Origin: Sideroxydans sp.
Lineage (GTDB): Bacteria > Pseudomonadota > Gammaproteobacteria > Burkholderiales > Gallionellaceae
DNA length: 64,000 bases
Assembly: GCA_028710605.1 (NCBI GenBank)
Contig: JAQTTU010000005.1
Location: 124,001-188,000, forward strand
Direction: 5' to 3'
The notes below the pieces were generated by a model, which saw nothing but the letters and a program-made list of their open reading frames with translations, made no database searches and was not told the origin of the DNA. Both the position numbers and the translations under genes were made by a program. Below, one piece after another: positions 229 through 21,258 of this stretch (positions within the stretch are counted from its first letter, which is position 1; every line of letters begins with the position of its first letter).

Positions 229-642
229 ATGGCAAAAAACGATAGTTTTGTCGATCATCTGATAGACGATCCGAGCAATATTCCCGACATGATTCTGCTC
301 AACGGGTTTGAGGGAAAGTCCGCGCTGGAAGGCTATACCCGGCTTTATCTGAACGCGGTGCTCAACGAATATTACGAGATCCCGCAAGATGCGGTTTTGC
401 ATTCTGTCGCGGCAAATGCGTCTTCCGCCCATCCGCTGACAACCACGTATCTCTGGTTGAAAGGCGATGCCGAGCTGATTCGCAAAGGCAAATCCGTTTC
501 CGAAAAGAAAATGAAATTTCTTGTCGGCGATATTCAAAGCGCTCAGACCGGAGCTCCGCAGGTCGGTCCGACCGGCGTGCAAAATTGCACCCAGTCACCG
601 CCCGTATGCGGCGATACCGCCTGGAAAGGATGTCCTGCATAG
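229..642 (+). CDS. Putative lanthipeptide-like RiPP precursor: long leader domain plus one Cys/Thr core
   Basis: The 137-residue product starts at the ATG behind AGGAG (218-222); an upstream in-frame extension has no comparable ribosome site. Residues 1-110 form an acidic, folded-looking leader with the block LNGFEGKSALEGYTRLYLN and then YYEIPQDAVLHS. Residues 112-137 are core-like, with VGPTGVQNC, TQSPPVC and TAWKGC, each placing Thr or Ser two to five residues before a Cys (Cys 120, 127, 135). The same three-ring module recurs several times in the next gene, which ties the two together. Genes for a kinase-like protein, a HopA1-like protein and a LanC-like cyclase lie downstream on the same strand. 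Assignment as a lanthipeptide precursor is inference from core pattern and neighbours; I do not recognise a named family for the leader. Confidence 0.7.
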   Translation: MAKNDSFVDHLIDDPSNIPDMILLNGFEGKSALEGYTRLYLNAVLNEYYEIPQDAVLHSVAANASSAHPLTTTYLWLKGDAELIRKGKSVSEKKMKFLVGDIQSAQTGAPQVGPTGVQNCTQSPPVCGDTAWKGCPA

Positions 643-803
643 GACAGAATTTTGTGTCTCCGGCGGGGATGATTTCCGCTCGGTATGCGAAGAATAGTGA
701 GGAGTATCAAGGTGGCAAGTCTTGATTTGCCAGAATAAGACGAGGAATTTATCCCGCTTTGCAATGATTAATTATTTACCCAACTTCTTTGAAGGAGAAA
801 TTC

Positions 804-1742
804 ATGTTCTCACAAGTTCCCAATTGCCCCACCGTAGCGCCGATGTGTCCTCCGATTTTGTCGGCTTATACCCACTGCCCTACCGTAGCTCCGATGTGTG
901 CGGTAACTCAATGGCAGTGTCCGCCGCTCACCGTAACGACAACGATTCAACCCACCCACTTGCTGGGCTGTCCGAATACAGCGACTTGCCCACCCACCCA
1001 CATGCTGGGCTGTCCGAATACAGCGACTTGCCCACCCACCCACATGCTGGGTTGTCCGAATACAGCCACCTGTCCGCCCACCCACATGGCGGGTTGTCCG
1101 AATACGGCCACTTGTCCGCCAGTTGATATGGCGGCTGCGCAGGCACTAGTCGGCCCGACCGGGGTACAGGGCTGCACGCAATCTCCTGCCCAATGCGGCA
1201 ATACTGCATGGCAAGGTTGCATGGTTGGCCCGACCGGCACGCAGGGGTGCACGCAACTGCAAGCCGGATGCGTCGGCCCGACCGGATGGCAGGGCTGCGC
1301 GCAACCGCCCGCACAGGCGAATGTAGCAATGGCTGGTCCGACCGGCGTACAAGGTTGCACGCAGTCTCCCGCGCAATGCGGCAATACCGCGTGGCCGGGT
1401 TGTTTGGTTGGTCCGACCGGCACACAAGGTTGTACGCAACTGCAAGCCGGTTGCGTCGGTCCGACCGGATGGATGGGCTGCGCGCAACCTCCCGCGCAAG
1501 CCGGCACAATTCACCCGACGCTGTGGACTCAGTTATGCCCGACCAACATGCCGGGTTGCCCAGGTACTGCCACCTGCGGACAGGCCGGGATGGTCGGACC
1601 CACCGGGGTGCAGGGTTGCACGCAGTCTCCCGCGCAATGCGGCAATACCGCATGGCAGGGTTGCCCTCCGACTCACATGCTGGGCTGCACTTGTCTGCCC
1701 ATGACTGTGGGGCCGGTAATTACTGTAGCGGGGCAGTGCTAA
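804..1742 (+). CDS. Giant multi-core Cys/Thr repeat protein, candidate multi-ring lanthipeptide precursor
   Basis: The 312-residue product has 34 Cys, about 47 Thr, only five Ser and no signal peptide. The start is set by GAAGGAG at 791-797, six bases before the ATG. Residues 1-49 hold degenerate units such as CPTVAPMC. Residues 50-105 are four tandem 14-residue repeats of the form PTHMLGCPNTATCP. Residues 116-171 and 177-232 are two copies of a composite module (GPTGVQGC, TQSPAQC, NTAW-GC, GPTGTQGC, TQLQAGC, GPTGW-GC). A third partial copy lies at 264-287 and the chain ends in GQC. The recurrent Thr-x(2-4)-Cys spacing is what methyllanthionine rings need. There is no leader like that of the preceding gene, so if it is modified the leader may act in trans or the repeats may be recognised directly. 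A structural Cys-rich surface protein is the alternative. Confidence 0.65.
   Translation: MFSQVPNCPTVAPMCPPILSAYTHCPTVAPMCAVTQWQCPPLTVTTTIQPTHLLGCPNTATCPPTHMLGCPNTATCPPTHMLGCPNTATCPPTHMAGCPNTATCPPVDMAAAQALVGPTGVQGCTQSPAQCGNTAWQGCMVGPTGTQGCTQLQAGCVGPTGWQGCAQPPAQANVAMAGPTGVQGCTQSPAQCGNTAWPGCLVGPTGTQGCTQLQAGCVGPTGWMGCAQPPAQAGTIHPTLWTQLCPTNMPGCPGTATCGQAGMVGPTGVQGCTQSPAQCGNTAWQGCPPTHMLGCTCLPMTVGPVITVAGQC
951..1118 (+). repeat. Four tandem 42-bp coding repeats
   Basis: Four consecutive 42-bp units encode the 14-residue repeat PTH(L/M)(L/A)GCPNTATCP. The units differ by only a few bases, which points to recent expansion by slippage or unequal recombination. Copy number may vary between strains. Confidence 0.9.
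1149..1664 (+). repeat. Higher-order repeat of the composite core module
   Basis: Two long copies (from about 1149 and 1332) and a third partial copy (1593-1664) encode the GPTGVQGC/TQSPAQC/NTAW-GC and GPTGTQGC/TQLQAGC blocks. The first block matches the single core at the C-terminus of the preceding gene. Confidence 0.85.
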
Positions 1743-1757
1743 GCAAGCGGTAGTTGA

Positions 1758-1790
1758 CCTGGGGCAGCTTTGTTCTGCCCCAGGTTTTTT
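1758..1790 (+). terminator. Strong intrinsic terminator after the precursor genes
   Basis: CCTGGGGCAG, a 7-base loop, CTGCCCCAGG and six T form a textbook rho-independent terminator. It separates the two precursors from the modification enzymes. Partial read-through would give the high precursor-to-enzyme ratio common in RiPP operons. Confidence 0.92.
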
Positions 1791-1838
1791 GTGTTCGCTT
1801 GCTTGCCGTCAGCTGTAATACACATAAGGGAAACCCGC

Positions 1839-2951
1839 ATGTTTTTAACCGCATCAAATCTGGTTCATTACCTGCTGGCGCGCGGCTTGGTAGGCGCAGA
1901 CACTGTGGTGGACGGCGATTTTAGGGTGGCCGAAGTCGGCCGCCGCAACCGGAATTACAAAGTCATTCTGAAGAACGGCAACGGGCTGTTCGTCAAACAA
2001 ATCAAAAATTTTGATGCCATGGCGATTTCCACTTTGCAACGGGAAGCGGCCTGTTATCGCATCGCCCGCCAAAACGCCGCCTATAGCGATCTGGCGGCCA
2101 GCATGACGCGCCTGATCGACCACGACGCGAACCGCCATTGCCTGATTGTCGAGCTGATCTCGGGCGGAGAAAATCTCAACGAATATTTTGTGCGCAGCAA
2201 AAACTTCCCGGCGGAAATCGGCAAGATGCTGGGCACAAGTTTGGGCGGCATTCACCAGACCTTGCGCGGCAAGCCGCTGCAAACGGAAGAAATGGCGGCA
2301 TTCCCGCGCCTGCCGCCATGGATATTGTCCTATCACAACAACAATGCGTTCCCTGCGGGCAGCTTGAGCGGCGGCACGCTGAAGCTGGCGGAAATCGTGC
2401 GGCAATATCCCGACCTGCATTACAACCTGGATCGCCTGCGCCAACACTGGCGCTACGACAGCCTGATTCACGGCGACATGAAATGGGATAACTGCATGGT
2501 CTATCCCGCTGGCGACGGCGGTTTGCAACTCAAAATCATCGACTGGGAACTGTTGGATTACGGCGATGCCTGCTGGGATGTCGGCGGCATATTCCAGGCG
2601 TTTCTGACCTCGTGGATTTATTCCATGCCGATAGGCAACGAAACGTCTCCGCAGCGCCTGATTGACAATGCAGGTTTGCAACTGGAAGCGCTGCATCCCG
2701 CCATCCGGGCGTTCTGGCGCAGCTATCTGGAAACCGGCGGCATTCCCCGGCAATACGCCGCGCACTACCTGATACGTTCCATCGAATACAGTGCCGCCCG
2801 TCTGGTGCAAACGGCATTCGAGAGTTTGTTTGTGTCGCCGGTGATGACGGGACATGCCGCGACCCTGCTGCAAGTCAGCCTGAATATTTTGCGCAACCCG
2901 CATGAAGCCGCACTGGCGTTGTACGGCTTGGGCGAGGAGGGCGCGCGATGA
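1839..2951 (+). CDS. APH-fold kinase-like protein, probable lanthipeptide phosphotransferase component
   Basis: The 370-residue product belongs to the aminoglycoside-phosphotransferase/choline-kinase fold. The catalytic loop is HGDMKWDN (H211, D213, N218) and the metal-binding segment is IIDWELLDYGD (D235); a nucleotide-lobe lysine lies in the FVKQIK region near residue 53. The ATG at 1839 follows AAGGG at a suitable distance; an upstream in-frame start would lie inside the terminator. The stop overlaps the next ATG (ATGA), so it is translationally coupled to the HopA1-like gene. In class V lanthipeptide pathways (lexapeptide, pristinin A3) a stand-alone kinase-like protein works with a HopA1-like protein; here it would phosphorylate core Thr/Ser before elimination. 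The specific substrate is inferred from position only. Confidence 0.8.
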   Translation: MFLTASNLVHYLLARGLVGADTVVDGDFRVAEVGRRNRNYKVILKNGNGLFVKQIKNFDAMAISTLQREAACYRIARQNAAYSDLAASMTRLIDHDANRHCLIVELISGGENLNEYFVRSKNFPAEIGKMLGTSLGGIHQTLRGKPLQTEEMAAFPRLPPWILSYHNNNAFPAGSLSGGTLKLAEIVRQYPDLHYNLDRLRQHWRYDSLIHGDMKWDNCMVYPAGDGGLQLKIIDWELLDYGDACWDVGGIFQAFLTSWIYSMPIGNETSPQRLIDNAGLQLEALHPAIRAFWRSYLETGGIPRQYAAHYLIRSIEYSAARLVQTAFESLFVSPVMTGHAATLLQVSLNILRNPHEAALALYGLGEEGAR

Positions 2952-3958
2952 ATGTGAAATCCATACGCGAAGAATTGGCGGAGATTTTCGCCGCGCTGCA
3001 AATTCATTCGCTGTCCGCCTATTCGTTCAGGGACGGCGTTCCCGTTCAGGTCAATGCGCAAGTGCCCGGCATGCCGAGCGGTCATACTCCTTTGCTGGAT
3101 AGTCTGCGCGACATGCTGTACAGCAGTTGTTACACGCGGCACGGTGCGCCGGGCGAGATGCCCGCAGCGCAAAATCTGATTCCCTTGTTGATGCGGGCCA
3201 ACCAGTCGCAGGACAGATGGGATCCCGCCTGGACTATTTACCAGCTGGGCGGCGATGGCCGTATTTCGGTGCAGAAGGGCGAACGCAGCCGCACAGCCGT
3301 GATCGGCGAATACGCCAGCAACAAAGCGCCGGGGATGCCGCCGCAGGTCGGCGACCAAGTGAATCTGCGCGCGTGTCCCGGCTCCGCCGACATGCAACCG
3401 GGATTTTATTTTTCCTTCGGCACTGCACTGTCCGACCAGTTCGACGATTGCGCGCTGCTGCGTTTTTATTTCAACATCAAAGCCGAAGGCGCGGCGGAAT
3501 TGCTGCGCGCGGTTTCCTCGCGCTTCAATTACTACGCGATTCCGTACCGCTACAAAACGCTCACCGATGCCTCGTTCTATACGCGCGCCGATGCCGCCGT
3601 GCTGTACGTGGCCAAGCGTTATTACCCTATCGCCGCGTCGCTGGTGCTCGCGCTGAGCGAACCGCTGGATGCCGTTCTGCGCGCGCAAGAACCCATGTTT
3701 TGCAAAACCTTGCGCCCCGGCGTGGGGATGGCGGAAGAGCCGGGAACCGGAGAAAGTTTCGGCATGCATCGCTGCCGCTTGGTTGCGGAAGGAATTGTCG
3801 ATGCGTGGATGGCGGGAGCGCAATCCGTCGAAGCGCGCATGGACGCGGTGCAAAAGCGATTCAGCGCCAGCGGTATCACGCTGAATCCGCCCTATTTGAA
3901 CGCCAAATCTATCGACCTGTTCGCGCATACCGATTGCGCCGGAGGCATCGCACTATGA
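2948..3958 (+). CDS. HopA1-family protein, probable phospho-Thr/Ser lyase of the lanthipeptide machinery
   Basis: The 336-residue product resembles the HopA1 effector family. The C-terminal half carries conserved-looking blocks FRFYFN-like (LLRFYFN), KRYYPIAASL, KTLRPGVGMAEEP, GESFGMHRCRLVAEG and NPPYLN. No signal peptide or secretion context is present, so a type III effector role is unlikely. Homologues in class V lanthipeptide clusters take part in dehydration by eliminating phosphate. The gene overlaps the kinase-like gene by four bases and precedes the LanC-like gene, supporting one enzyme complex. Catalytic residues cannot be assigned from this sequence alone. Confidence 0.78.
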   Translation: MNVKSIREELAEIFAALQIHSLSAYSFRDGVPVQVNAQVPGMPSGHTPLLDSLRDMLYSSCYTRHGAPGEMPAAQNLIPLLMRANQSQDRWDPAWTIYQLGGDGRISVQKGERSRTAVIGEYASNKAPGMPPQVGDQVNLRACPGSADMQPGFYFSFGTALSDQFDDCALLRFYFNIKAEGAAELLRAVSSRFNYYAIPYRYKTLTDASFYTRADAAVLYVAKRYYPIAASLVLALSEPLDAVLRAQEPMFCKTLRPGVGMAEEPGTGESFGMHRCRLVAEGIVDAWMAGAQSVEARMDAVQKRFSASGITLNPPYLNAKSIDLFAHTDCAGGIAL

Positions 3959-3976
3959 GACTGAAAAATGCCATTG

Positions 3977-4110
3977 AGCCACGGATGAACACAGATGAAA
4001 CACGGATATACAGCAGCGCATCCGGCAAATATATATTCGTCATCCAAGTGAGTTGTGCGTCATGTGTGACGCACGGTTTCATCTGTGTGTATCCGTGTTC
4101 ATCCGTGGCT
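3977..4110. repeat. Dispersed inverted-repeat element (AGCCACGGATGAACAC family)
   Basis: The element begins AGCCACGGATGAACACAG and ends with TATCCGTGTTCATCCGTGGCT-like complement, giving long imperfect arms around an AT-rich centre. It lies between the HopA1-like and LanC-like genes. A 56-codon open frame through it (3955-4125) encodes the repeat itself and is not called a gene. Confidence 0.8.
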
Positions 4111-4126
4111 AGAAAAGGTTTATAGA

Positions 4127-5380
4127 ATGACCCAACGCTCCGCCCCCTTTTTAGAAACCGCCGACCGTATCGGCCGCAAGTTATGCCGCGAAGCCGTGTG
4201 GGACGGCAAGCGCTGCACTTGGCTGGGCTGGTCCATGGAGGCGATCAACCAGCAATGGATTCCCGCCTACCGCTCTTACGCATCCGAGCTGTACAGCGGA
4301 ACCAGCGGTATCGCCTTATTCCTCGCGGAACTGCACCGGTTCACCAACGATCCGCAACAGCGCCGTGCGCTGGAAGGCGCGGTCAATCAAACCCTGTCGC
4401 TGACGGACACGTTGCAAGGCTCGCGCCGCATCGGTTTTTATTCCGGCATCAGCGGTATTGCTTATTCCTTGTCGCGTATCGGTACATTGCTGGGAAACGA
4501 AAAACTCGTCGCGCGCAGCCTGAGCGAAATGGCCACGCTGAACGGCATCGCGCCGGACAAAAATCTGATCGACGTGATCGGCGGCAGCGCGGGCGCGATT
4601 CCGGCTTTGCTGGCGCTGGGTCAAAGCCATGGCCGCGCCGACTTGATCGAAACGGCGACCGTGCACGGCGACCATCTGCTCAACACCGCGATGCAAAGCG
4701 AGCAAGGCTGGTCGTGGGACACCATGCAAGTAGTCGGACAAAAAAATCTCACCGGACATTCTCACGGTGTGGCGGGCGTGGTCACCGCTTTGCTGGAATT
4801 GCACCGTGCCACCGGCGAAGCCCGCTTCCGCGACGGCGCGCTGCAAGGCTTGCGCTATGAACGCCACCTGTTCAATCCCGCCTACAACAACTGGCCCGAT
4901 CTGCGCATCATGAACCCCGGCGCTGCGCAGCAGTCCGTGTACAACATGGCGTGGTGTCACGGCGCACCGGGCATAGGCCTGTCGCGCCTGCGCAACTACG
5001 AGTTGTTGGACGGCGACAGCGAAATACGCGAAGAAATGGATGCCGCCATCCAAACCACCGCCGCCGCGCTGTCCCTGCCGTGGACACCCGGCATGGGCAA
5101 CTACTCGCTGTGCCACGGCGCGTGCGGCAATGCCGAGCTGCTGCTGATGGCCGCGCAACAACTGAATCGCCCGGAGTTGAGGCAGATCGCCGAAAAAGTC
5201 GGCTGGGAAGGCTACCAATATTTTGCCCAGCCCGAATTGCCCTGGCCGTGCGGCGTTTCCGGCGCGGGCGAAACGCCCAATCTGATGCTGGGCACGGCGG
5301 GCATAGGCCACTACTACTTGCGTTTGCATGACCCGGTATCTGTGCCGTCGGTGCTGATTGTGACACCTGAGGTATCTTAA
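4127..5380 (+). CDS. LanC-like zinc cyclase
   Basis: The 417-residue product has the LanC alpha-toroid signatures: GTSGIALFL and GISGIAYSL repeats, GHSHGVAGV (residues 210-218), MAWCHGAPGIG (C277, H278) and SLCHGACGNAEL (C329, H330). The Cys/Cys-His zinc triad and the active-site His expected from NisC are all present, so the enzyme should be functional. It would add Cys thiols to dehydrated Thr/Ser to close (methyl)lanthionine rings. The ATG at 4127 is chosen because an upstream start would translate the dispersed repeat. A stand-alone LanC beside separate kinase-like and HopA1-like proteins is the split equivalent of the fused class III/IV enzymes. Confidence 0.9.
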   Translation: MTQRSAPFLETADRIGRKLCREAVWDGKRCTWLGWSMEAINQQWIPAYRSYASELYSGTSGIALFLAELHRFTNDPQQRRALEGAVNQTLSLTDTLQGSRRIGFYSGISGIAYSLSRIGTLLGNEKLVARSLSEMATLNGIAPDKNLIDVIGGSAGAIPALLALGQSHGRADLIETATVHGDHLLNTAMQSEQGWSWDTMQVVGQKNLTGHSHGVAGVVTALLELHRATGEARFRDGALQGLRYERHLFNPAYNNWPDLRIMNPGAAQQSVYNMAWCHGAPGIGLSRLRNYELLDGDSEIREEMDAAIQTTAAALSLPWTPGMGNYSLCHGACGNAELLLMAAQQLNRPELRQIAEKVGWEGYQYFAQPELPWPCGVSGAGETPNLMLGTAGIGHYYLRLHDPVSVPSVLIVTPEVS

Positions 5381-5612: not shown

Positions 5613-5888
5613 ATGAGTCAAGAAAGCGCAGATAAATTATTGAACGCCCTCAATTCCGATGCTGCACTACGTAAGAAATTCACTGCCGCCGGTCCGGATG
5701 GTTTTGCAAAAACGGCTGCAGCTGCGGGCTTTTCCTGCTCAAAGGAGGCGTTTGCCAGATCCGTAAAAGCCGCCATAGTCAAGTCCGACCCTAAAAAGGA
5801 TGTTTTCGCTGTGGCTGATGGCATCGTTTCAGGTATTTCTGGCGGGATAAGTTCGCATGTGTCTGGTGTGGGAACCGGAATTGCTTGA
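5613..5888 (+). CDS. Nif11-type leader peptide RiPP precursor
   Basis: The 91-residue product starts seven bases after AAGGAG. Residues 1-65 have the Nif11-like leader pattern: an amphipathic N-terminal helix with SADKLLNALNSDAALRKKF, then a GFAKTAAAAGFSCSKEAF segment. The tail (VADGIVSGISGGISSHVSGVGTGIA region) is Gly/Ser/Val/Ile-rich and has no Cys. That composition suits epimerisation and C-methylation rather than thioether formation. The two radical SAM genes directly downstream encode exactly those activities in proteusin-type pathways. The leader/core boundary cannot be fixed from sequence; the VADG/ISGG segment is the best guess. Confidence 0.8.
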   Translation: MSQESADKLLNALNSDAALRKKFTAAGPDGFAKTAAAAGFSCSKEAFARSVKAAIVKSDPKKDVFAVADGIVSGISGGISSHVSGVGTGIA

Positions 5889-6059
5889 AGCACTACCCGC
5901 AATAGTTTTTCTTAAGTCCAAAACTTAGCTTGGGTTTTGTGGAAGGCAGGTGTGGCTACGTTGCGGGTAGCGGATGGAATGTCTGTTACCCGCATTTTGT
6001 TTGCTAGGTGCATATCCGACCTGAAAAAGAGTGTTCGAGACAAAGGAGTCCGCAAAAAT

Positions 6060-7496
6060 ATGGAAATATTTCGTTCATATAATCCATTTTCTGATATCGC
6101 CAGCCATACAAAAAGATTTTTTGAATACTGGTTGGCCGATGAGGGCTTCCGCAAAAGCCTTGTAATCGATCCTTTCGGGACGGCGAATTTGTATGGACTT
6201 GAAATCAACCCGATGGATGTCAGGTTGCTTTGGGATGTTGCTTATAAATTAAAGGTGGGGCTAGCACCTGAGCGCCCAGAAGAAAATCTGGAACTCTTGA
6301 TGTGTGAGCCGGAAGCAACTCATGCATTGGCGGGTTATTTTGATGCGAACAACATCGTGCGACGGAAAATGCGTGAGGATAGTGTTCCCTTGGACCCGCG
6401 TTTCAAGGCGTGGCGTTCCCGGCAAATTGCCCGTTGCGAAATCGAATTCAGGCCAGCCTATGAATTTAACACCCCGCATATTGTATTTGCCTGTGAGCTG
6501 AGCAGCGGATGTTCGGTCGGTTGCTGGTTTTGTGGTGTGGATGCCGCGAAGTTCAAGGGGAATTTTCCGCGTACTAAACAAAATATGAGGTTGTTTTTGG
6601 AGGTGCTCGGTGTCATCAAACACTTTGCCGGAGAATCCGCTGCAAGATGGGGATTTCTATACTGGGCAACAGACCCGTTTGATAATCCTGATTTTGAGGA
6701 TTTTTGTCTGGATTTTCAAGGAATCCTCGGCAATTTTCCGGTAATCACAACCGCCCAGCCGATGAGGGATGTAAGTCGTACTCGTCGATTGCTTGCAATG
6801 GCAAAAGACCACAATGCCTCTAAAGTCCGTTTCTCAATTCTTTCCAACAGTCTTTTGCGCCGGGTGCATGAGGAGTTTTCTGCCCAAGAGCTTGCCATTA
6901 CCGATCTCATCCCGCTCAACAAAAAAAGTAGCATGCTGCAAAAGTCCGCAGTCGGCAGAGCCAAAATCATGCTTGATAAACAGGCTCAGGAACAGAATCT
7001 GATGGATAACGAAAAACCTGATGAATCGATTAGTTGTGTATCGGGTTTTTTGCTCAACATGGTAGATAAAACCATAAAGCTAACTTCCCCTTGCAATAGC
7101 AGTGAAAAATGGCCATTAGGCTATTACGTGTATGAAGAAATGACATTTACAGATGCACCTGACCTATACACCAAAATTGAAACCATGATCGTGCGTCACA
7201 TGCCCATCTCTGTCATCAACAGCAAACCTGTGAGATTCATCGGGAACTGTGAATACCAGCCTCTGGACGACGGATTTAGAATCAGTTCCAAACATGGGTA
7301 CAAATCATTTGAAAATAATTTTTTATACAGGGAATTGGGTGACTTGATCAGGGCGGGAGATAAAACACCAAATCAGATATGTTCTTACTTTGAACAAATG
7401 TACGGTATAGCCAAAGACACGTCGGATGGTTGGCTTGAGCAATTATTTGCCAACGGCATTCTTGATGAAGAACCACAAGGTCAATCCCATTCATGA
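6060..7496 (+). CDS. Radical SAM peptide epimerase, PoyD-like
   Basis: The 478-residue product has a [4Fe-4S] radical SAM motif in FACELSSGCSVGCWFCGV (C151, C155, C158; CX3CX2C). This arrangement with the ELSSGC lead-in is typical of RiPP-maturation amino acid epimerases such as PoyD/OspD, which convert core L-residues to D by alpha-hydrogen abstraction. The start at 6060 follows GGAG at 6045-6048; a TTG start 41 codons upstream would have no ribosome site. The gene follows the Nif11-type precursor and overlaps the next radical SAM gene by four bases. Codons are noticeably AT-richer than those of the housekeeping genes, hinting at transfer. Which core residues are epimerised is unknown. Confidence 0.8.
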   Translation: MEIFRSYNPFSDIASHTKRFFEYWLADEGFRKSLVIDPFGTANLYGLEINPMDVRLLWDVAYKLKVGLAPERPEENLELLMCEPEATHALAGYFDANNIVRRKMREDSVPLDPRFKAWRSRQIARCEIEFRPAYEFNTPHIVFACELSSGCSVGCWFCGVDAAKFKGNFPRTKQNMRLFLEVLGVIKHFAGESAARWGFLYWATDPFDNPDFEDFCLDFQGILGNFPVITTAQPMRDVSRTRRLLAMAKDHNASKVRFSILSNSLLRRVHEEFSAQELAITDLIPLNKKSSMLQKSAVGRAKIMLDKQAQEQNLMDNEKPDESISCVSGFLLNMVDKTIKLTSPCNSSEKWPLGYYVYEEMTFTDAPDLYTKIETMIVRHMPISVINSKPVRFIGNCEYQPLDDGFRISSKHGYKSFENNFLYRELGDLIRAGDKTPNQICSYFEQMYGIAKDTSDGWLEQLFANGILDEEPQGQSHS

Positions 7497-9484
7497 TGAA
7501 AACCAGCTCGCCCTTAATCCGATTTGTTGCCACTCCATTCCTCCCGGAATATCAGCCTGCGCTGGGCATCAGTTCGCTCAAGGCTCAGTTAGTTCGTGCG
7601 GGACACAATGTGGATATCAGATATCTCAATATTGATTACGGCAACCGGATTGGTTGGGAGATCAATAGCATAATCACGCAATTTATTCCGACCCAGAGCC
7701 TGGTGGGTGAAATCATTTTTGCTCGTTCACTATGGGACGATTTAACGCCGGATTTATCCGAGTATTTCGTCAGATTTAGGAATGAAAAGTTTTTCGACCG
7801 AAAATTGGATCAAAAAACATCAGCACTGAATCTGGATGAATTCATCGGCATCATCAGCATGCTGCATTGCGAAAGCGCGTCCATCATAAAAAAATGGGCG
7901 CAGGAATTATTGGTGGGCAATCCCAGAATAATTGGTTTTTCGACTTCTTTTCAGCAGAACATTCCGTCCTTGAGTCTCGCCAAGGAGTTGCGGCGACTTC
8001 GTTCTCGTGAAGAGCTTTGTATCATCTTTGGCGGCGCGAATTGTGAAGGCGAAATGGCACAAGCTTTGGTCGATAACTTTCCTTATATTGATCATGTGGT
8101 TTCCGGGGAGGGCGAGCCAGTTATTCTTGAACTTATTGATGCCATCTTGAACCAGAAAAAATATCCAGCATTTCCCTTTGCACGCACCATTCGTTCGGGA
8201 AGGGTTGAGGACATGGACTCCTTGCCAATTCCCGATTTCAAGGACTTCTTCATTGAGAGCGAAGGAAAGAATTTTCCTGCCAAGTTAAATTTGTCGGCTG
8301 AGTCTTCTAGGGGGTGCTGGTGGGGGGCCAAGTCACATTGCAAATTCTGCGGACTGAACGGTTCAAACATATCGTACCGCAGCAAGAACCCGGAACGATT
8401 TCTTAACGAACTTGAAGAGCTGTCTGCAAGCTACGGCATTAGTGAATTTATGATTACCGACAACATTATGGATATGAAATACATTCAAAGTATTTTCCCC
8501 AAGCTGGCAGGTGGTATCAATAACTTGAAGATGTTTTACGAAGTGCTAAGCAATCTTAAAAAGGAGCAGATTAAAATTATCGCAGCCGCTGGGGTCGTGC
8601 GCATTCAGCCGGGTATCGAGAGCTTGAGCACTTCAATCCTAAAGCTAATGGGAAAGGGAACATCGAGGCTTAAAAATCTGCAAACACTCAAATGGTGCGA
8701 GGAATACGGCGTTCAGGTGACATGGAATTTATTGCATGGGTTTCCCGGTGAGCAGGAAGACGAGTATGCATCAATGGCCGAGCTTATTCCAAATCTTGTG
8801 CATTTGCCGGCTCCCACCGGTGATGGTCGGGTTCGTCTTGATCGCTTCGGGCCTTATTGGTGCTCGCCGCAAAAACACGGGATCACCAATGTTCGCCACC
8901 ATTGGGCCTATGACCATGCATATGCCCCTCTCCCCCCCGAGCAAAGAGCACGCTTGGCTTATTTCTTTGAGTACGATTATGCCGATCACCGAATACCGGA
9001 AAACTATACCCGGACGGCAATAGATAGATTGGCTGATTGGCGGTTGTCCTATTTCTCCAAGCTACCGAAAACCCTGGAACTTACTTTATGTAACGGTCGG
9101 GGAGAAGTCACTGACACCCGTTATGGCATTCACAAACAATTCGACTTGAGCGAACCGGAACTTTTCCTGCTGAAGGTATTGGATAAGGCATGCAGCAGGA
9201 ACGCTGCGTTTGCTGAATTCAGTGCGGTTCACACGAGTGCAACCGTTCAGGACTTTACCCATTTGCTGGACAAGTTCATGGCACGTAAGTGGGTTGTAGT
9301 AGAAGATGAAAAATTTCTGAGCCTGGTTTTAGATCGTTCGCTCAGTGAAGAGGTTGTCGATTACAAAGTCAATAAAAGGCTGGAACAGCTTGGCCTATCT
9401 TTTCTGTCAGCAACCCCCAAAAGCAATGAGATCAATGAGGAAGACACCATTGAACTTTATTCGCTCTCACCATCATTCAAATAA
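7493..9484 (+). CDS. RiPP maturation radical SAM C-methyltransferase (B12-type)
   Basis: The 663-residue product has an N-terminal cobalamin-binding-type domain (about 1-230, with GFSTSFQQN and IIFGGANCEG segments). A radical SAM motif follows in SSRGCWWGAKSHCKFCGLNG (C275, C283, C286; CX7CX2C). The SRGCWWG...CKFCGLNG signature is characteristic of the RiPP maturation radical SAM protein 1 family, which includes C-methyltransferases acting on unactivated carbons. The C-terminal third has a winged, helical look. It is coupled to the epimerase gene through ATGATG and most likely acts on the Nif11-type precursor, possibly also on the Cys/Thr precursors. Base composition is low in G+C like its neighbour. 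Confidence 0.85.
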   Translation: MMKTSSPLIRFVATPFLPEYQPALGISSLKAQLVRAGHNVDIRYLNIDYGNRIGWEINSIITQFIPTQSLVGEIIFARSLWDDLTPDLSEYFVRFRNEKFFDRKLDQKTSALNLDEFIGIISMLHCESASIIKKWAQELLVGNPRIIGFSTSFQQNIPSLSLAKELRRLRSREELCIIFGGANCEGEMAQALVDNFPYIDHVVSGEGEPVILELIDAILNQKKYPAFPFARTIRSGRVEDMDSLPIPDFKDFFIESEGKNFPAKLNLSAESSRGCWWGAKSHCKFCGLNGSNISYRSKNPERFLNELEELSASYGISEFMITDNIMDMKYIQSIFPKLAGGINNLKMFYEVLSNLKKEQIKIIAAAGVVRIQPGIESLSTSILKLMGKGTSRLKNLQTLKWCEEYGVQVTWNLLHGFPGEQEDEYASMAELIPNLVHLPAPTGDGRVRLDRFGPYWCSPQKHGITNVRHHWAYDHAYAPLPPEQRARLAYFFEYDYADHRIPENYTRTAIDRLADWRLSYFSKLPKTLELTLCNGRGEVTDTRYGIHKQFDLSEPELFLLKVLDKACSRNAAFAEFSAVHTSATVQDFTHLLDKFMARKWVVVEDEKFLSLVLDRSLSEEVVDYKVNKRLEQLGLSFLSATPKSNEINEEDTIELYSLSPSFK

Positions 9485-9498
9485 AAAGGGAAAGCAAA

Positions 9499-10836
9499 AT
9501 GAGTAAAGCCGAAAACCTGATTCCGTTTCGCGTAGGTGCGTGGTTGCCGTCAGACCAGAAATTCCTGAACAACTGGCTGAAGAATTTGATCAAGGAAGTG
9601 GATGCTGCGCCCAAGCCATTGCATCCGGTGGTGCAGGAGTTGAAAGACCTCATCGAGTCCGATGCGCAGATTTACATGCTGGTGAACATGATGCTGGAGC
9701 AAGTTCCGGCAAAGTATCAGCATAGCCAGTACGGCAAACAGGTGCGCGATTACCACCATCTGCTGCAACTCATCAATGCCATCATGACGCAGGCACCGAC
9801 TTACAACACGACAGGTTGCGTGGGCTTTCCGATCAATGCCATCCTCGATTGGTCGATGGGAACGGAAGGCGGTTTTGCCGCATTCCTGAATGAGAAACTC
9901 AACGCCCAACTCAAGAAGGTAATCAACGAGTGGGGCATCTTCCTGAAGTCCAAAGACTCGGTGTATGTGGTGGATGAGAAAGCGCCGTCCGGCTGGCTGA
10001 GCGATAACGCCATGGTGGGCATGTTTCCTCCGCCCAACTTTCCGCCAAATCCGACTGCCAAGGATATAAAAAACGCCGCGCCGCAAGCCCGGCTGGATTT
10101 CATTGCGGCCTTCCAATGCGAACCCGCAAAACCGCACTGGGGCTACACGTCATGGGACGATTTCTTTACCCGGCAATTCAACGAAGGGCAGCGCCCCATC
10201 GCCTCGCCGGACGATGATTCGGTGATCGTCAACGCTTGCGAATCGGCACCCTACAATCTGGTTTCAGATGTTCAGCGCCTCAGCAAATTCTGGATCAAGG
10301 CACAGCCCTATTCTCTCCAGCTCATGCTGCATAACGACGTGCTGGTGGAAAAATTTGTCGGCGGGACGATCTATCAGGCCTTCCTGAGCGCGATGAGTTA
10401 TCACCGCTGGCATAGCCCGCTCAGCGGCAAGGTGGTCAAAGCCTACGTGCAGGATGGAACATACTATTCGGAAGCTCCGGCGGAAGGATACGACCCCGCC
10501 GGACCGAACTCATCGCAGGGTTACATCACCGAGGTGGCGGCCAGAGCGATGATCTTCATCGAGGCCGACAACCCCGCGATCGGGCTGATGTGCATCATGT
10601 TCGTCGGCATGGCGGAAGTATCTTCCTGCGACATCACCGTTTACGAAGGGCAGCATGTCAACAAGGGCGAACAGTTGGGTATGTTCCACTTTGGCGGCTC
10701 GTCGCATTGTCTGATCTTCCGCCCCGGCGTGAAGCTCGAATTCGATCTGCATGGACAGACCCCCGGCCTCGATTCGAGCAACATTCCGATCAACTCTAAG
10801 ATCGCCAAAGTGAAAACAAAGAAGGTGGGAAAGTAA
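9499..10836 (+). CDS. Phosphatidylserine decarboxylase-like enzyme (PsiD-type)
   Basis: The 445-residue product has an N-terminal helical domain (about 30-170, HPVVQELKDLIESD) of the kind found in long PSD-related proteins. The C-terminal PSD fold includes YHRWHSPLSGKV and MFHFGGSSHCLIF. Self-cleavage at Gly-Ser in GGSS (near S401) would generate the pyruvoyl cofactor, as in the fungal tryptophan decarboxylase PsiD. No membrane helix is evident, so a soluble amino-acid or peptide decarboxylase is as likely as a lipid enzyme. It sits 15 bases after the methyltransferase gene, preceded by AAAGGGAAAG, so it probably belongs to the RiPP operon. Its substrate is unknown. Confidence 0.75.
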   Translation: MSKAENLIPFRVGAWLPSDQKFLNNWLKNLIKEVDAAPKPLHPVVQELKDLIESDAQIYMLVNMMLEQVPAKYQHSQYGKQVRDYHHLLQLINAIMTQAPTYNTTGCVGFPINAILDWSMGTEGGFAAFLNEKLNAQLKKVINEWGIFLKSKDSVYVVDEKAPSGWLSDNAMVGMFPPPNFPPNPTAKDIKNAAPQARLDFIAAFQCEPAKPHWGYTSWDDFFTRQFNEGQRPIASPDDDSVIVNACESAPYNLVSDVQRLSKFWIKAQPYSLQLMLHNDVLVEKFVGGTIYQAFLSAMSYHRWHSPLSGKVVKAYVQDGTYYSEAPAEGYDPAGPNSSQGYITEVAARAMIFIEADNPAIGLMCIMFVGMAEVSSCDITVYEGQHVNKGEQLGMFHFGGSSHCLIFRPGVKLEFDLHGQTPGLDSSNIPINSKIAKVKTKKVGK

Positions 10837-19539: not shown

Positions 19540-21258
19540 ATGCTCAAATTCCTAAGCATCCGCGATTTCGTCATCGTCGAATCTCTCGAACTCGATTTCA
19601 CTGCCGGCTTCACCGCGTTGACCGGCGAAACCGGCGCGGGCAAATCCATTTTGATCGACGCGCTGTCGCTGGCCTTGGGCGAACGCGGCGATGCGGGCAT
19701 GGTGCGCAGCGGCTGCGAGCGCGCCGAGATCGCCGCCGAATTCGACATCGCCGCTTTGCCGCAAGTGCAAAACTGGCTGCGTGAACAGGAGCTGGAAGGC
19801 GACGAGGGCGTGTGCCTGTTGCGCCGCACGCTGGATGTCGGCGGACGTTCGCGCGGCTTCATCAACGGCAGCAGCGCCACGCTGCAACAACTGCGCGCTG
19901 CCGCCGATTTCCTGCTCGACATCCACGGCCAGCACGCGCACCAATCCTTGTTGCGCGCCGATGCGCAGCGCGAGTTGCTGGACAGCCATGCGGGTCTCTC
20001 AAAAGACTGCGACCATGTCGCCGAACATTACAAGACATGGCAAACCCTGCACCGCCGCCGCACGCAGTTGCAGCAGAATGCCGAAGCCGTCGCCGCCGAG
20101 CGCGAGTTGTTGGTGTTCCAGCGGCGCGAACTGGAGACATTGAATTTTGCCGAGGCCGAGTGGGAAAGTTTGCAGGCCGACCACGCGCGCCTGTCGCATG
20201 CCGCGAGTCTGCTGGAGACGGCGCAGTTCGGGGTGGAGGTGTTGAGCGAGTCGGATACCGCGTGCTTGGCGCAACTGAATGCGCTGGTGGCGCGGCTGCG
20301 CGCCGGGCTGGAATTTGACACCTCGTTGCAAGACACGCTGACCATTCTGGAAAGCGCGCAAAACGAATTGCAGGAAGCGGTGTATGCGCTGCGCCACTAT
20401 CAGGAAAAGTTGGATGCCGATCCGCAGCAGATGCGCGCGCAGGAACAACGCATCGCCGACGTGATGGAAGCCGCGCGCAAATACCGCGTCAAGCCGGAAC
20501 AGTTGCCGCAAACGCTGGCGGACATCGCGGCGCGGCTGGACGAGTTGGGCGGCAGCGCCGACATGGCCGAGCTGGCCAAACAGGAGGCGGCAGCGCAGGG
20601 TGCATATCAAACCGCAGCGAAGAAACTCAGTGCCGCGCGCACCGTCGCCGCGAAAAAATTATCCGGCGAAATCACCGCCGCGATGCAGACCTTGGCCATG
20701 CAGGGCGGACAGTTCGCCGTGGCGTTGTTGCCGCTGGCCGAAGGCAATGCCTACGGTCTGGAGAGCGTGGAATTGCAGGTCGCCGCCAATCAGGGTTCGC
20801 CGCTGCGCAGTCTGGCGAAAGTGGCCTCCGGCGGCGAATTGTCGCGCATCAGCCTGGCGATTCAGGTCGCCGCCAGCAGCGCCGCCAGCGTGCCGACGCT
20901 GATCTTCGACGAAGTGGATAGCGGCATAGGCGGGCGCGTGGCGGAGATCGTCGGCGGATTGCTCAAGCAGCTGGGCAAGCGCCATCAAGTGTTGTGCGTC
21001 ACCCATCTGCCGCAAGTCGCGGCGCAGGCCGACGGGCAATGGCAAGTGAGCAAGGCCATCAGCAACGGCGCGACGTTGAGCCATATCCAGGTGCTGAACA
21101 GCGAACAGCGCGTCGAAGAAATCGCGCGCATGCTGGGCGGGGCGACGATCACCGAAACCACGCGCAAACATGCGGCGGAAATGCTAATTACTTCTTCCCT
21201 CTCCCACCCTCACCCCACGCCCTCTCCCGGAGGGAGAGGGAGCCAATTGAGGGACTGA
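19540..21258 (+). CDS. recN: DNA repair protein RecN
   Basis: The 572-residue SMC-like ATPase has Walker A in LTGETGAGKSILIDAL (residues 27-42), a coiled-coil middle, a signature region ASGGELSRISLAI and Walker B LIFDEVDSGIGG. It acts in recombinational double-strand-break repair. The natural C-terminus would be near HAAEMLI; the last residues (SLSHPHPTPSPGGRGSQLRD) are encoded by a dispersed repeat, so the tail has been replaced or extended by about 24 residues. The catalytic core is intact. Confidence 0.95.
   Translation: MLKFLSIRDFVIVESLELDFTAGFTALTGETGAGKSILIDALSLALGERGDAGMVRSGCERAEIAAEFDIAALPQVQNWLREQELEGDEGVCLLRRTLDVGGRSRGFINGSSATLQQLRAAADFLLDIHGQHAHQSLLRADAQRELLDSHAGLSKDCDHVAEHYKTWQTLHRRRTQLQQNAEAVAAERELLVFQRRELETLNFAEAEWESLQADHARLSHAASLLETAQFGVEVLSESDTACLAQLNALVARLRAGLEFDTSLQDTLTILESAQNELQEAVYALRHYQEKLDADPQQMRAQEQRIADVMEAARKYRVKPEQLPQTLADIAARLDELGGSADMAELAKQEAAAQGAYQTAAKKLSAARTVAAKKLSGEITAAMQTLAMQGGQFAVALLPLAEGNAYGLESVELQVAANQGSPLRSLAKVASGGELSRISLAIQVAASSAASVPTLIFDEVDSGIGGRVAEIVGGLLKQLGKRHQVLCVTHLPQVAAQADGQWQVSKAISNGATLSHIQVLNSEQRVEEIARMLGGATITETTRKHAAEMLITSSLSHPHPTPSPGGRGSQLRD

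Follow-up and report, generated by a model that had tools for sequence, protein, structure and literature searches.

What does a bacterial locus make when it encodes a kinase, a HopA1-like lyase and a LanC-like cyclase as separate genes behind two cysteine- and threonine-bearing reading frames, and which of those frames are the substrates? The question is raised by a 64,000-nucleotide stretch of Sideroxydans sp. (assembly GCA_028710605.1, contig JAQTTU010000005.1, positions 124,001 to 188,000; hereafter the window), for which an initial annotation proposed lanthipeptide machinery with its three enzymes encoded apart but clustered. All of these open reading frames (ORFs) lie where they had been placed (Table 1), and the assignment holds in that the protein families, catalytic residues and gene order are conserved. 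We refer to the two upstream genes as A1 and A2 and to the enzymes LanK, LanY and LanC as K, Y and C. Judged from the sequences, these genes likely constitute a class V-like lanthipeptide pathway in which K, Y and C modify both A1 and A2, the leader domain of A1 probably acting in trans on A2.

Conservation of the kinase, lyase and cyclase

K matches the NCBIfam model for LxmK (NF038156) at E 2.2e-27 and 96.1 bits, the model cut-off being 315; by this score K is a distant relative of LxmK and no LxmK equivalog. Within the HGDMKWDN motif singled out in the initial annotation, H, D, W and N are invariant across all four aligned K proteins, as is a later D-W-E, while the remaining letters vary. 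Residues H211, D213, N218 and D235 are likewise kept in all four.

Y contains the HopA1-family domain PF17914, as had been recognised, and is the single match to that family across the whole source genome. Its residues R172, K203, R213 and Y220 are invariant in ten of ten aligned sequences and are spaced by 31, 10 and 7 positions. The corresponding spacing in CaoY, taken from the published residue numbers (Arg187, Lys219, Arg229 and Tyr236, all but the last examined by mutagenesis; PMC9486802), is 32, 10 and 7. When single sequences were searched against the PDB (thresholds of E 0.01 for K and E 1 for Y), each matched one sequence: K matched chain A of 9dk1, 'Kinase', at E 0.0013, and Y matched chain B, 'Lyase', at E 4.2e-11. 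Profile searches improved these values to 1.4e-9 and 4.7e-22, and the second match of the Y profile was HopA1 itself (4rsx, E 0.0011). The chains matched by K and by Y belong to shared solved entries, 9dk1 to 9dk3, in which we infer that the Kinase and Lyase chains form a complex. A reading of Y as a type III effector was rejected because Y adjoins C in all 19 loci and K in all 18 loci with K visible, and because it matches a 'Lyase' chain in entries that also contain a 'Kinase'.

The description of C as a LanC with all zinc ligands proved sound, since C277, C329 and H330 (ligands by alignment) are invariant in all 11 aligned C proteins, together with H213 and D149. C scores 302.9 bits against the LanM model TIGR03897 (cut-off 304), matching only positions 544-932 of 932, and the same model is matched by 11 of 11 aligned C proteins. 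The best PDB match was LicM2 (6st5), followed by LanC-like proteins and NisC. The closest resemblance of C is to the cyclase portion at the LanM C terminus.

Related loci in several phyla

The three-enzyme set described in the initial annotation recurs in 19 distinct loci from several phyla, the window included. Its betaproteobacterial source is borne out by a near relative, with a LanY 95% identical, which is a Sideroxydans metagenome-assembled genome (MAG). With the source genome excluded, a LanY search matched one of 99 other close relatives and two of 397 other sampled Pseudomonadota. A scan of genome contigs with a four-sequence LanY alignment then gave 14 loci (L018-L031). Their proteobacterial hosts are Sideroxydans sp. 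DeMMO3_12, three Undibacterium, a Burkholderiales MAG, Magnetococcales, Sphingomonas, Elioraea and a further Proteobacteria MAG; the others are Thermoanaerobaculum, Solibacteraceae, Planctomycetota, Adhaeribacter and Chloroflexota. Viral contigs scanned with LanC gave no relative.

C adjoins Y in all 14 scan loci and K was found in 13 (profiles built from the first four loci); the Chloroflexota contig begins partway through Y, and in L018 C is truncated. All 18 loci in which K is visible keep the order K-Y-C, fusions included. Y and C form one ORF in L025 and L029, and in L024, from a Planctomycetota MAG, all three are joined in a single 1191-aa ORF (320-3892) with the Pfam order APH (43-263), HopA1 (574-743) and LANC (827-1184).

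Consistent clustering of the enzyme homologues without a Cys/Thr precursor, the outcome that would have spoken against the initial annotation, was not seen: 17 of the 18 loci with K visible have such an ORF upstream. It stands directly before K in 16; L030 has one gene between, and the L027 contig gives only 89 nt before K. In 13 loci the upstream ORF is a giant repeat protein of 275-658 aa with 20-55 core Cys. The order A1-A2-K-Y-C is shared by the window and L018, L019, L020, L021, L022 and L023, in each of which an A2 homologue was found; the A2 proteins of these seven loci have 275-459 aa and 29-47 Cys. L019 belongs to the named strain Undibacterium pigrum DSM 19792. In L025 and L028 the ORF before K encodes a giant repeat protein, with 54 and 32 Cys, respectively, and there is no A1-type leader at that place; by eye the N-terminal parts of these two giants have a GPLxQH-like motif in common. 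The contigs of L024 and L026 start within a Cys-bearing ORF, of which the last 85 and 75 aa are visible.

Smaller precursors also occur. In L029, from Elioraea, the A1-type leader carries a core of ordinary size with Thr/Ser and Cys (172 aa, 4 Cys). L030 encodes a 117-aa Cys-rich peptide, with a luciferase-like monooxygenase gene (7637-8602, PF00296 E 1.2e-27) between it and K; luciferase-like oxidoreductases are described in PMC7794033 as occurring with the class V gene pair and are linked there to the reduction of dehydro residues.

Leader domains fused to giant Cys/Thr cores

An A1-type leader is present in 8 of the 15 sources formed by the window and L018-L031, five of these eight having built the profile. 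Applied to the 13 genomes of L019-L031, the profile matched in eight, three times at new places. Among the phylum samples it was found in two of 296 other Acidobacteriota, one of 294 Planctomycetota and one of 397 other Pseudomonadota; given so few matches, the leader family is rare. AlphaFold2 models the leader as one helix and six strands (mean pLDDT, the predicted local distance difference test score, of 78.9). Foldseek comparison of this model with the PDB gave nothing at E <= 0.001, and with a best E of 0.23 we claim no fold relative.

In seven proteobacterial loci, including the window, the leader is encoded apart from the giant core. In four others (L041, L051, L052 and L053; Table 1), the ~100-aa leader and the giant core are one protein. 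The leader search was independent of the enzymes, and of eight leader matches outside the loci of the first scan, five sit at four K-Y-C loci. Because the leader is fused elsewhere to giant cores directly before K-Y-C, A2-type giant repeats appear to be substrates; these fusions in other phyla are, from sequence, the best evidence for that role.

The initial annotation counted two precursor genes in the window. Both ORFs are present, but A2 is not an ordinary second precursor, being a 312-aa protein without the A1 leader. It contains 34 Cys, 47 Thr and 5 Ser but one charged residue. Cys content alone does not single A2 out: at 10.5% its frame is second among the 138 stop-to-stop frames of at least 150 residues in the window. 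The frame richest in Cys (19655-20140; 162 residues, 11.1%) is likely a shadow frame. Neither A1 nor A2 matches a Pfam or NCBIfam model at E 0.1.

A1 and A2 are under purifying selection. In comparison with the same-genus locus L015, the ratios of nonsynonymous to synonymous substitution rates are 0.121 for A1, 0.076 for A2, 0.124 for K and 0.127 for Y. All 29 aligned Cys of A2 and 37 of its 39 aligned Thr are conserved in L015, five Cys falling in indels, and the number of units differs between the two genomes. A Thr or Ser precedes 97% of A2 Cys by 2-6 residues, against 60% in shuffles. This spacing exceeds 1000 shuffles in 12 of 17 precursors (p <= 0.005, values that are optimistic because of the repeats). 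A regular expression for a 23-residue unit, GPTGVQxCT....CGNTAWxxC, finds 25 instances among the A1 and A2 proteins of proteobacteria, including one that is a residue shorter.

A proposed pathway and its alternatives

Kinase-then-lyase action is established for CaoK and CaoY (PMC9486802), and ring closing by LanC is stated for class Vb (PMC12291118, PMC12328550). The order of steps proposed here follows these precedents. From the genes, families, catalytic residues, gene order, selection and leader-core fusions established above, we infer every reaction, the ring pattern and the action of the leader in trans, as follows. Within the core units of both A1 and A2, LanK would phosphorylate Thr as well as the few Ser present, and LanY would eliminate the phosphate to leave dehydrobutyrine. 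The zinc enzyme LanC would then close thioethers between dehydrobutyrine and nearby Cys, so that each 23-residue unit could carry as many as three methyllanthionine rings (T-x4-C, T-x5-C and T-x4-C). The ~100-aa leader domain of A1 would be the recognition element, probably in trans for A2.

More tentatively, and at somewhat less than even chances, these loci may represent a distinct lanthipeptide branch. In it, folded leader domains would guide K-Y-C to install tens of methyllanthionine rings on repeat proteins of 275-658 residues, and the products would be thioether-laddered structural or surface materials, not small antibiotics; in betaproteobacteria the leader would be a separate, trans-acting gene. 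The repeat proteins of the betaproteobacterial loci are nearly uncharged. Lanthipeptides are generally thought of as small peptides, and if the proposal is true, genetically encoded chains several hundred residues long, each with dozens of candidate thioether rings, would, together with a large leader domain that lacks annotation and a compact enzyme trio spread over several phyla, widen the product range of the class and offer a natural route to thioether-stapled protein material. The enzymes, natural K-Y-C and Y-C fusions included, would be new tools for peptide engineering, and the split leader/core arrangement makes the trans action of a leader directly testable.

Several points weigh against the pathway. 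K falls below the LxmK cut-off, and the A1-type leader is absent from A2. In five of the 17 precursors (L025, L028, L053, L029 and A1), the Thr/Ser-Cys spacing is not above shuffles. By eye, no LanT-like exporter was recognised among window ORFs of at least 40 aa to 14 kb and of at least 220 aa to 26 kb. Finally, three of the eight new leader matches (L042, L054 and L043) are not beside K-Y-C. In L042 (9046-11284), a leader and a 32-Cys protein lie beside a LANC_like ORF, with K and Y unmatched in the 19.9-kb stretch. In L054 (892-1581, minus strand) the leader is attached to CPCVCPYP repeats, and the neighbouring ORF matches ThiF below threshold (E 0.0072), an arrangement suggesting that the leader may serve another type of ribosomally synthesised and post-translationally modified peptide (RiPP). 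The leader frame of L043 runs off the end of a 4.9-kb contig.

The best-surviving alternative shares the chemistry and differs in the fate of A2, which would be a multi-core precursor cut into many small lanthipeptides instead of being kept whole. We regard this as a serious possibility that stops a little short of an even chance. Multi-core RiPP precursors exist, and the units of A2 recur in numbers that differ between two close genomes. Possible processing enzymes are a papain-type C1 protease, whose gene immediately precedes that of the giant precursor in L052 (8608-9612), and an S8 subtilase encoded ~2.9 kb before A1 in L020 (2860-4158). However, by eye the spacers vary in length and sequence, with no conserved charged or double-Gly spacer, and no protease gene lies inside the A1-to-C stretch.

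It is unlikely that A1 is the only substrate of K-Y-C and that A2 stays unmodified, as a Cys-rich protein that binds metal or has a structural role. The missing leader and the single charged residue would suit such a role, and Cys-rich repeats can bind metal. Conversely, the A1 core is 60-75% identical to stretches of A2, the leader-core fusions stand directly before K-Y-C, and in Sphingomonas (L028) the giant repeat is the only precursor seen, no leader being found in that genome at E 0.001.

Modification of A1 and A2 by K-Y-C might also be joined by the genes that follow. At 5613-9484 a Nif11-type peptide precedes a PoyD-type radical S-adenosylmethionine (SAM) epimerase and a B12 radical-SAM C-methyltransferase; this is probably a second RiPP cluster, separate from K-Y-C. 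That the peptide and the two enzymes share the pathway, and also epimerise or methylate A1 or A2, seems quite improbable. They are adjacent and on the same strand (epimerase TIGR04517, C-methyltransferase TIGR03975), and a SPASM radical-SAM gene lies near the L020 cluster, albeit on the opposite strand. Nevertheless, the Nif11 peptide, whose only Cys is inside the Nif11 domain, is the likelier substrate, and by eye the LanC-adjoining ORFs differ in Undibacterium (L019, L020) and Magnetococcales (L016).

Eukaryotic LanC-like proteins have been reported to add an external thiol or to quench dehydro residues, and the PDB matches of C include LanC-like proteins 1 and 2, but a scheme in which K and Y dehydrate while C does likewise and forms no rings is very improbable, the best matches of C being the LanM cyclase part and LicM2 and Cys being abundant and conserved within A2.

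Relation to known lanthipeptide classes

The initial annotation held that class V was not known with a classical LanC. This was not upheld: class Vb, with LanK, LanY and LanC, has been described (PMC12328550, PMC12291118). Because K, Y and C together correspond to class Vb, the enzyme trio, which had been given as the reason for an undescribed or little-described subtype, is not new; what stands of that claim is the leader domain, the giant Cys/Thr cores, the split of leader and core and the fusions. In the open-licence literature, titles and abstract openings gave no account of a large leader, giant cores, the split arrangement or a K-Y-C fusion.

The window has the class V feature of a stand-alone PF01636 kinase adjoining a PF17914 lyase (in the relatives too, fused in L024) and the class Vb feature of a zinc LanC with LanK and LanY. 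Class Vb, reported from Actinobacteria (SmoA, cyclase SmoC, LanK and LanY; PMC12291118, PMC12328550), likewise combines a stand-alone APH kinase with a HopA1 lyase and a LanC cyclase. Unlike class Vb, with SmoA and SmoC compared by description, the window system lies outside Actinobacteria and has a ~100-aa leader and giant Cys/Thr cores; its LanC is closest to the LanM cyclase part, and its relatives include fusions. Class Va (cacaoidin, lexapeptide and pristinin A3) has the same LanK and LanY pair with matching LanY catalytic spacing, but its precursors are small and, as set out in PMC12291118, it has LanD and LanX and no LanC, whereas the window has one.

The cyclase C-terminal half of class II LanM resembles C, but the LanM dehydratase domain is lacking here and dehydration is assigned to a separate kinase and lyase. 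Classes III and IV (LanKC and LanL) likewise use kinase, lyase and cyclase functions together; they are fused there as lyase-kinase-cyclase with another kinase family, whereas the window genes are separate and the L024 fusion runs kinase-lyase-cyclase. Nif11-leader RiPPs such as the prochlorosins also have a large leader domain, but A1 matches no Nif11 or other leader model.

PMC12328550 gives actinobacteria as the only known source of class V. Cyanobacteria, Planctomycetes and Proteobacteria are already reported to contain distant homologues of the pair formed by the kinase and the HopA1 protein (PMC7794033), cyanobacterial type-B candidate precursors are mentioned in PMC9486802, and an antiSMASH class V call in a planctomycete appears in PMC9692418.

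Gene layout and neighbourhood

Table 1. Positions of cluster features in the window, with leader-core proteins of other loci and genes upstream of A1.
Feature	Position	Strand	Remarks
A1 precursor	229-642	+	~100-aa leader domain + one core unit (VGPTGVQNCTQSPPVCGDTAWKGC)
A2 multi-unit repeat protein	804-1742	+	312 aa, without A1 leader
Terminator-like hairpin between A2 and K	1756-1790	+	12-pair stem, T run after
LanK-type APH-fold Ser/Thr kinase (K)	1839-2951	+	PF01636 E 8.6e-13
LanY-type HopA1 phospho-Ser/Thr lyase (Y)	2948-3958	+	PF17914 E 9.4e-37
Dispersed palindromic repeat between Y and C, outside pathway	3965-4122	+	inverted arms
LanC-type zinc cyclase (C)	4127-5380	+	PF05147 E 6.7e-61
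L041 leader + giant core			658 aa, 55 Cys; genome also holds L025
L051 leader + giant core			332 aa, K-Y-C locus
L052 leader + giant core			513 aa before K; second, 284 aa, 14 Cys, after C
L053 leader + giant core			297 aa; C runs to contig end
LuxR-type gene	L012 2165-2884		PF03472 E 9.8e-33, PF00196; precedes LuxI-type gene
LuxI-type synthase	L012 3340-3930		PF00765 E 1.5e-32; outside window, ends 299 bp before A1

Both A1 and A2 have ribosome-binding-like sites upstream, judged by eye. The hairpin between A2 and K would favour expression of the precursors over that of the enzymes, and is a lead only because terminator-like sites in the whole region (11, against a shuffle mean of 14.2) show no excess. 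The repeat inserted between Y and C has 60 matches in its own genome, mostly partial; in the near relative L015 the Y and C frames overlap. Twelve inverted repeats were considered as a regulatory palindrome before A1, where the upstream DNA is conserved with L015, and none was distinctive enough to name. Searching the surrounding 16 kb against Rfam returned four hits to microRNA families; none reached the gathering score, and all were taken as chance. The flavoprotein decarboxylase family was absent among the nine window proteins scanned with Pfam and NCBIfam.

LuxR- and LuxI-type genes lie upstream of A1 and, by eye, also in L015, making quorum control of the cluster in Sideroxydans possible; no LuxI was found among the seven L020 flank proteins scanned. 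Beside that Undibacterium cluster, on the minus strand, a SPASM radical-SAM protein lies between two DUF1843 proteins (L020 12368-14739). In the window, the radical-SAM genes are directly followed by a gene (9499-10836) whose product is phosphatidylserine-decarboxylase-like and carries an additional PSDC domain (PF12588).

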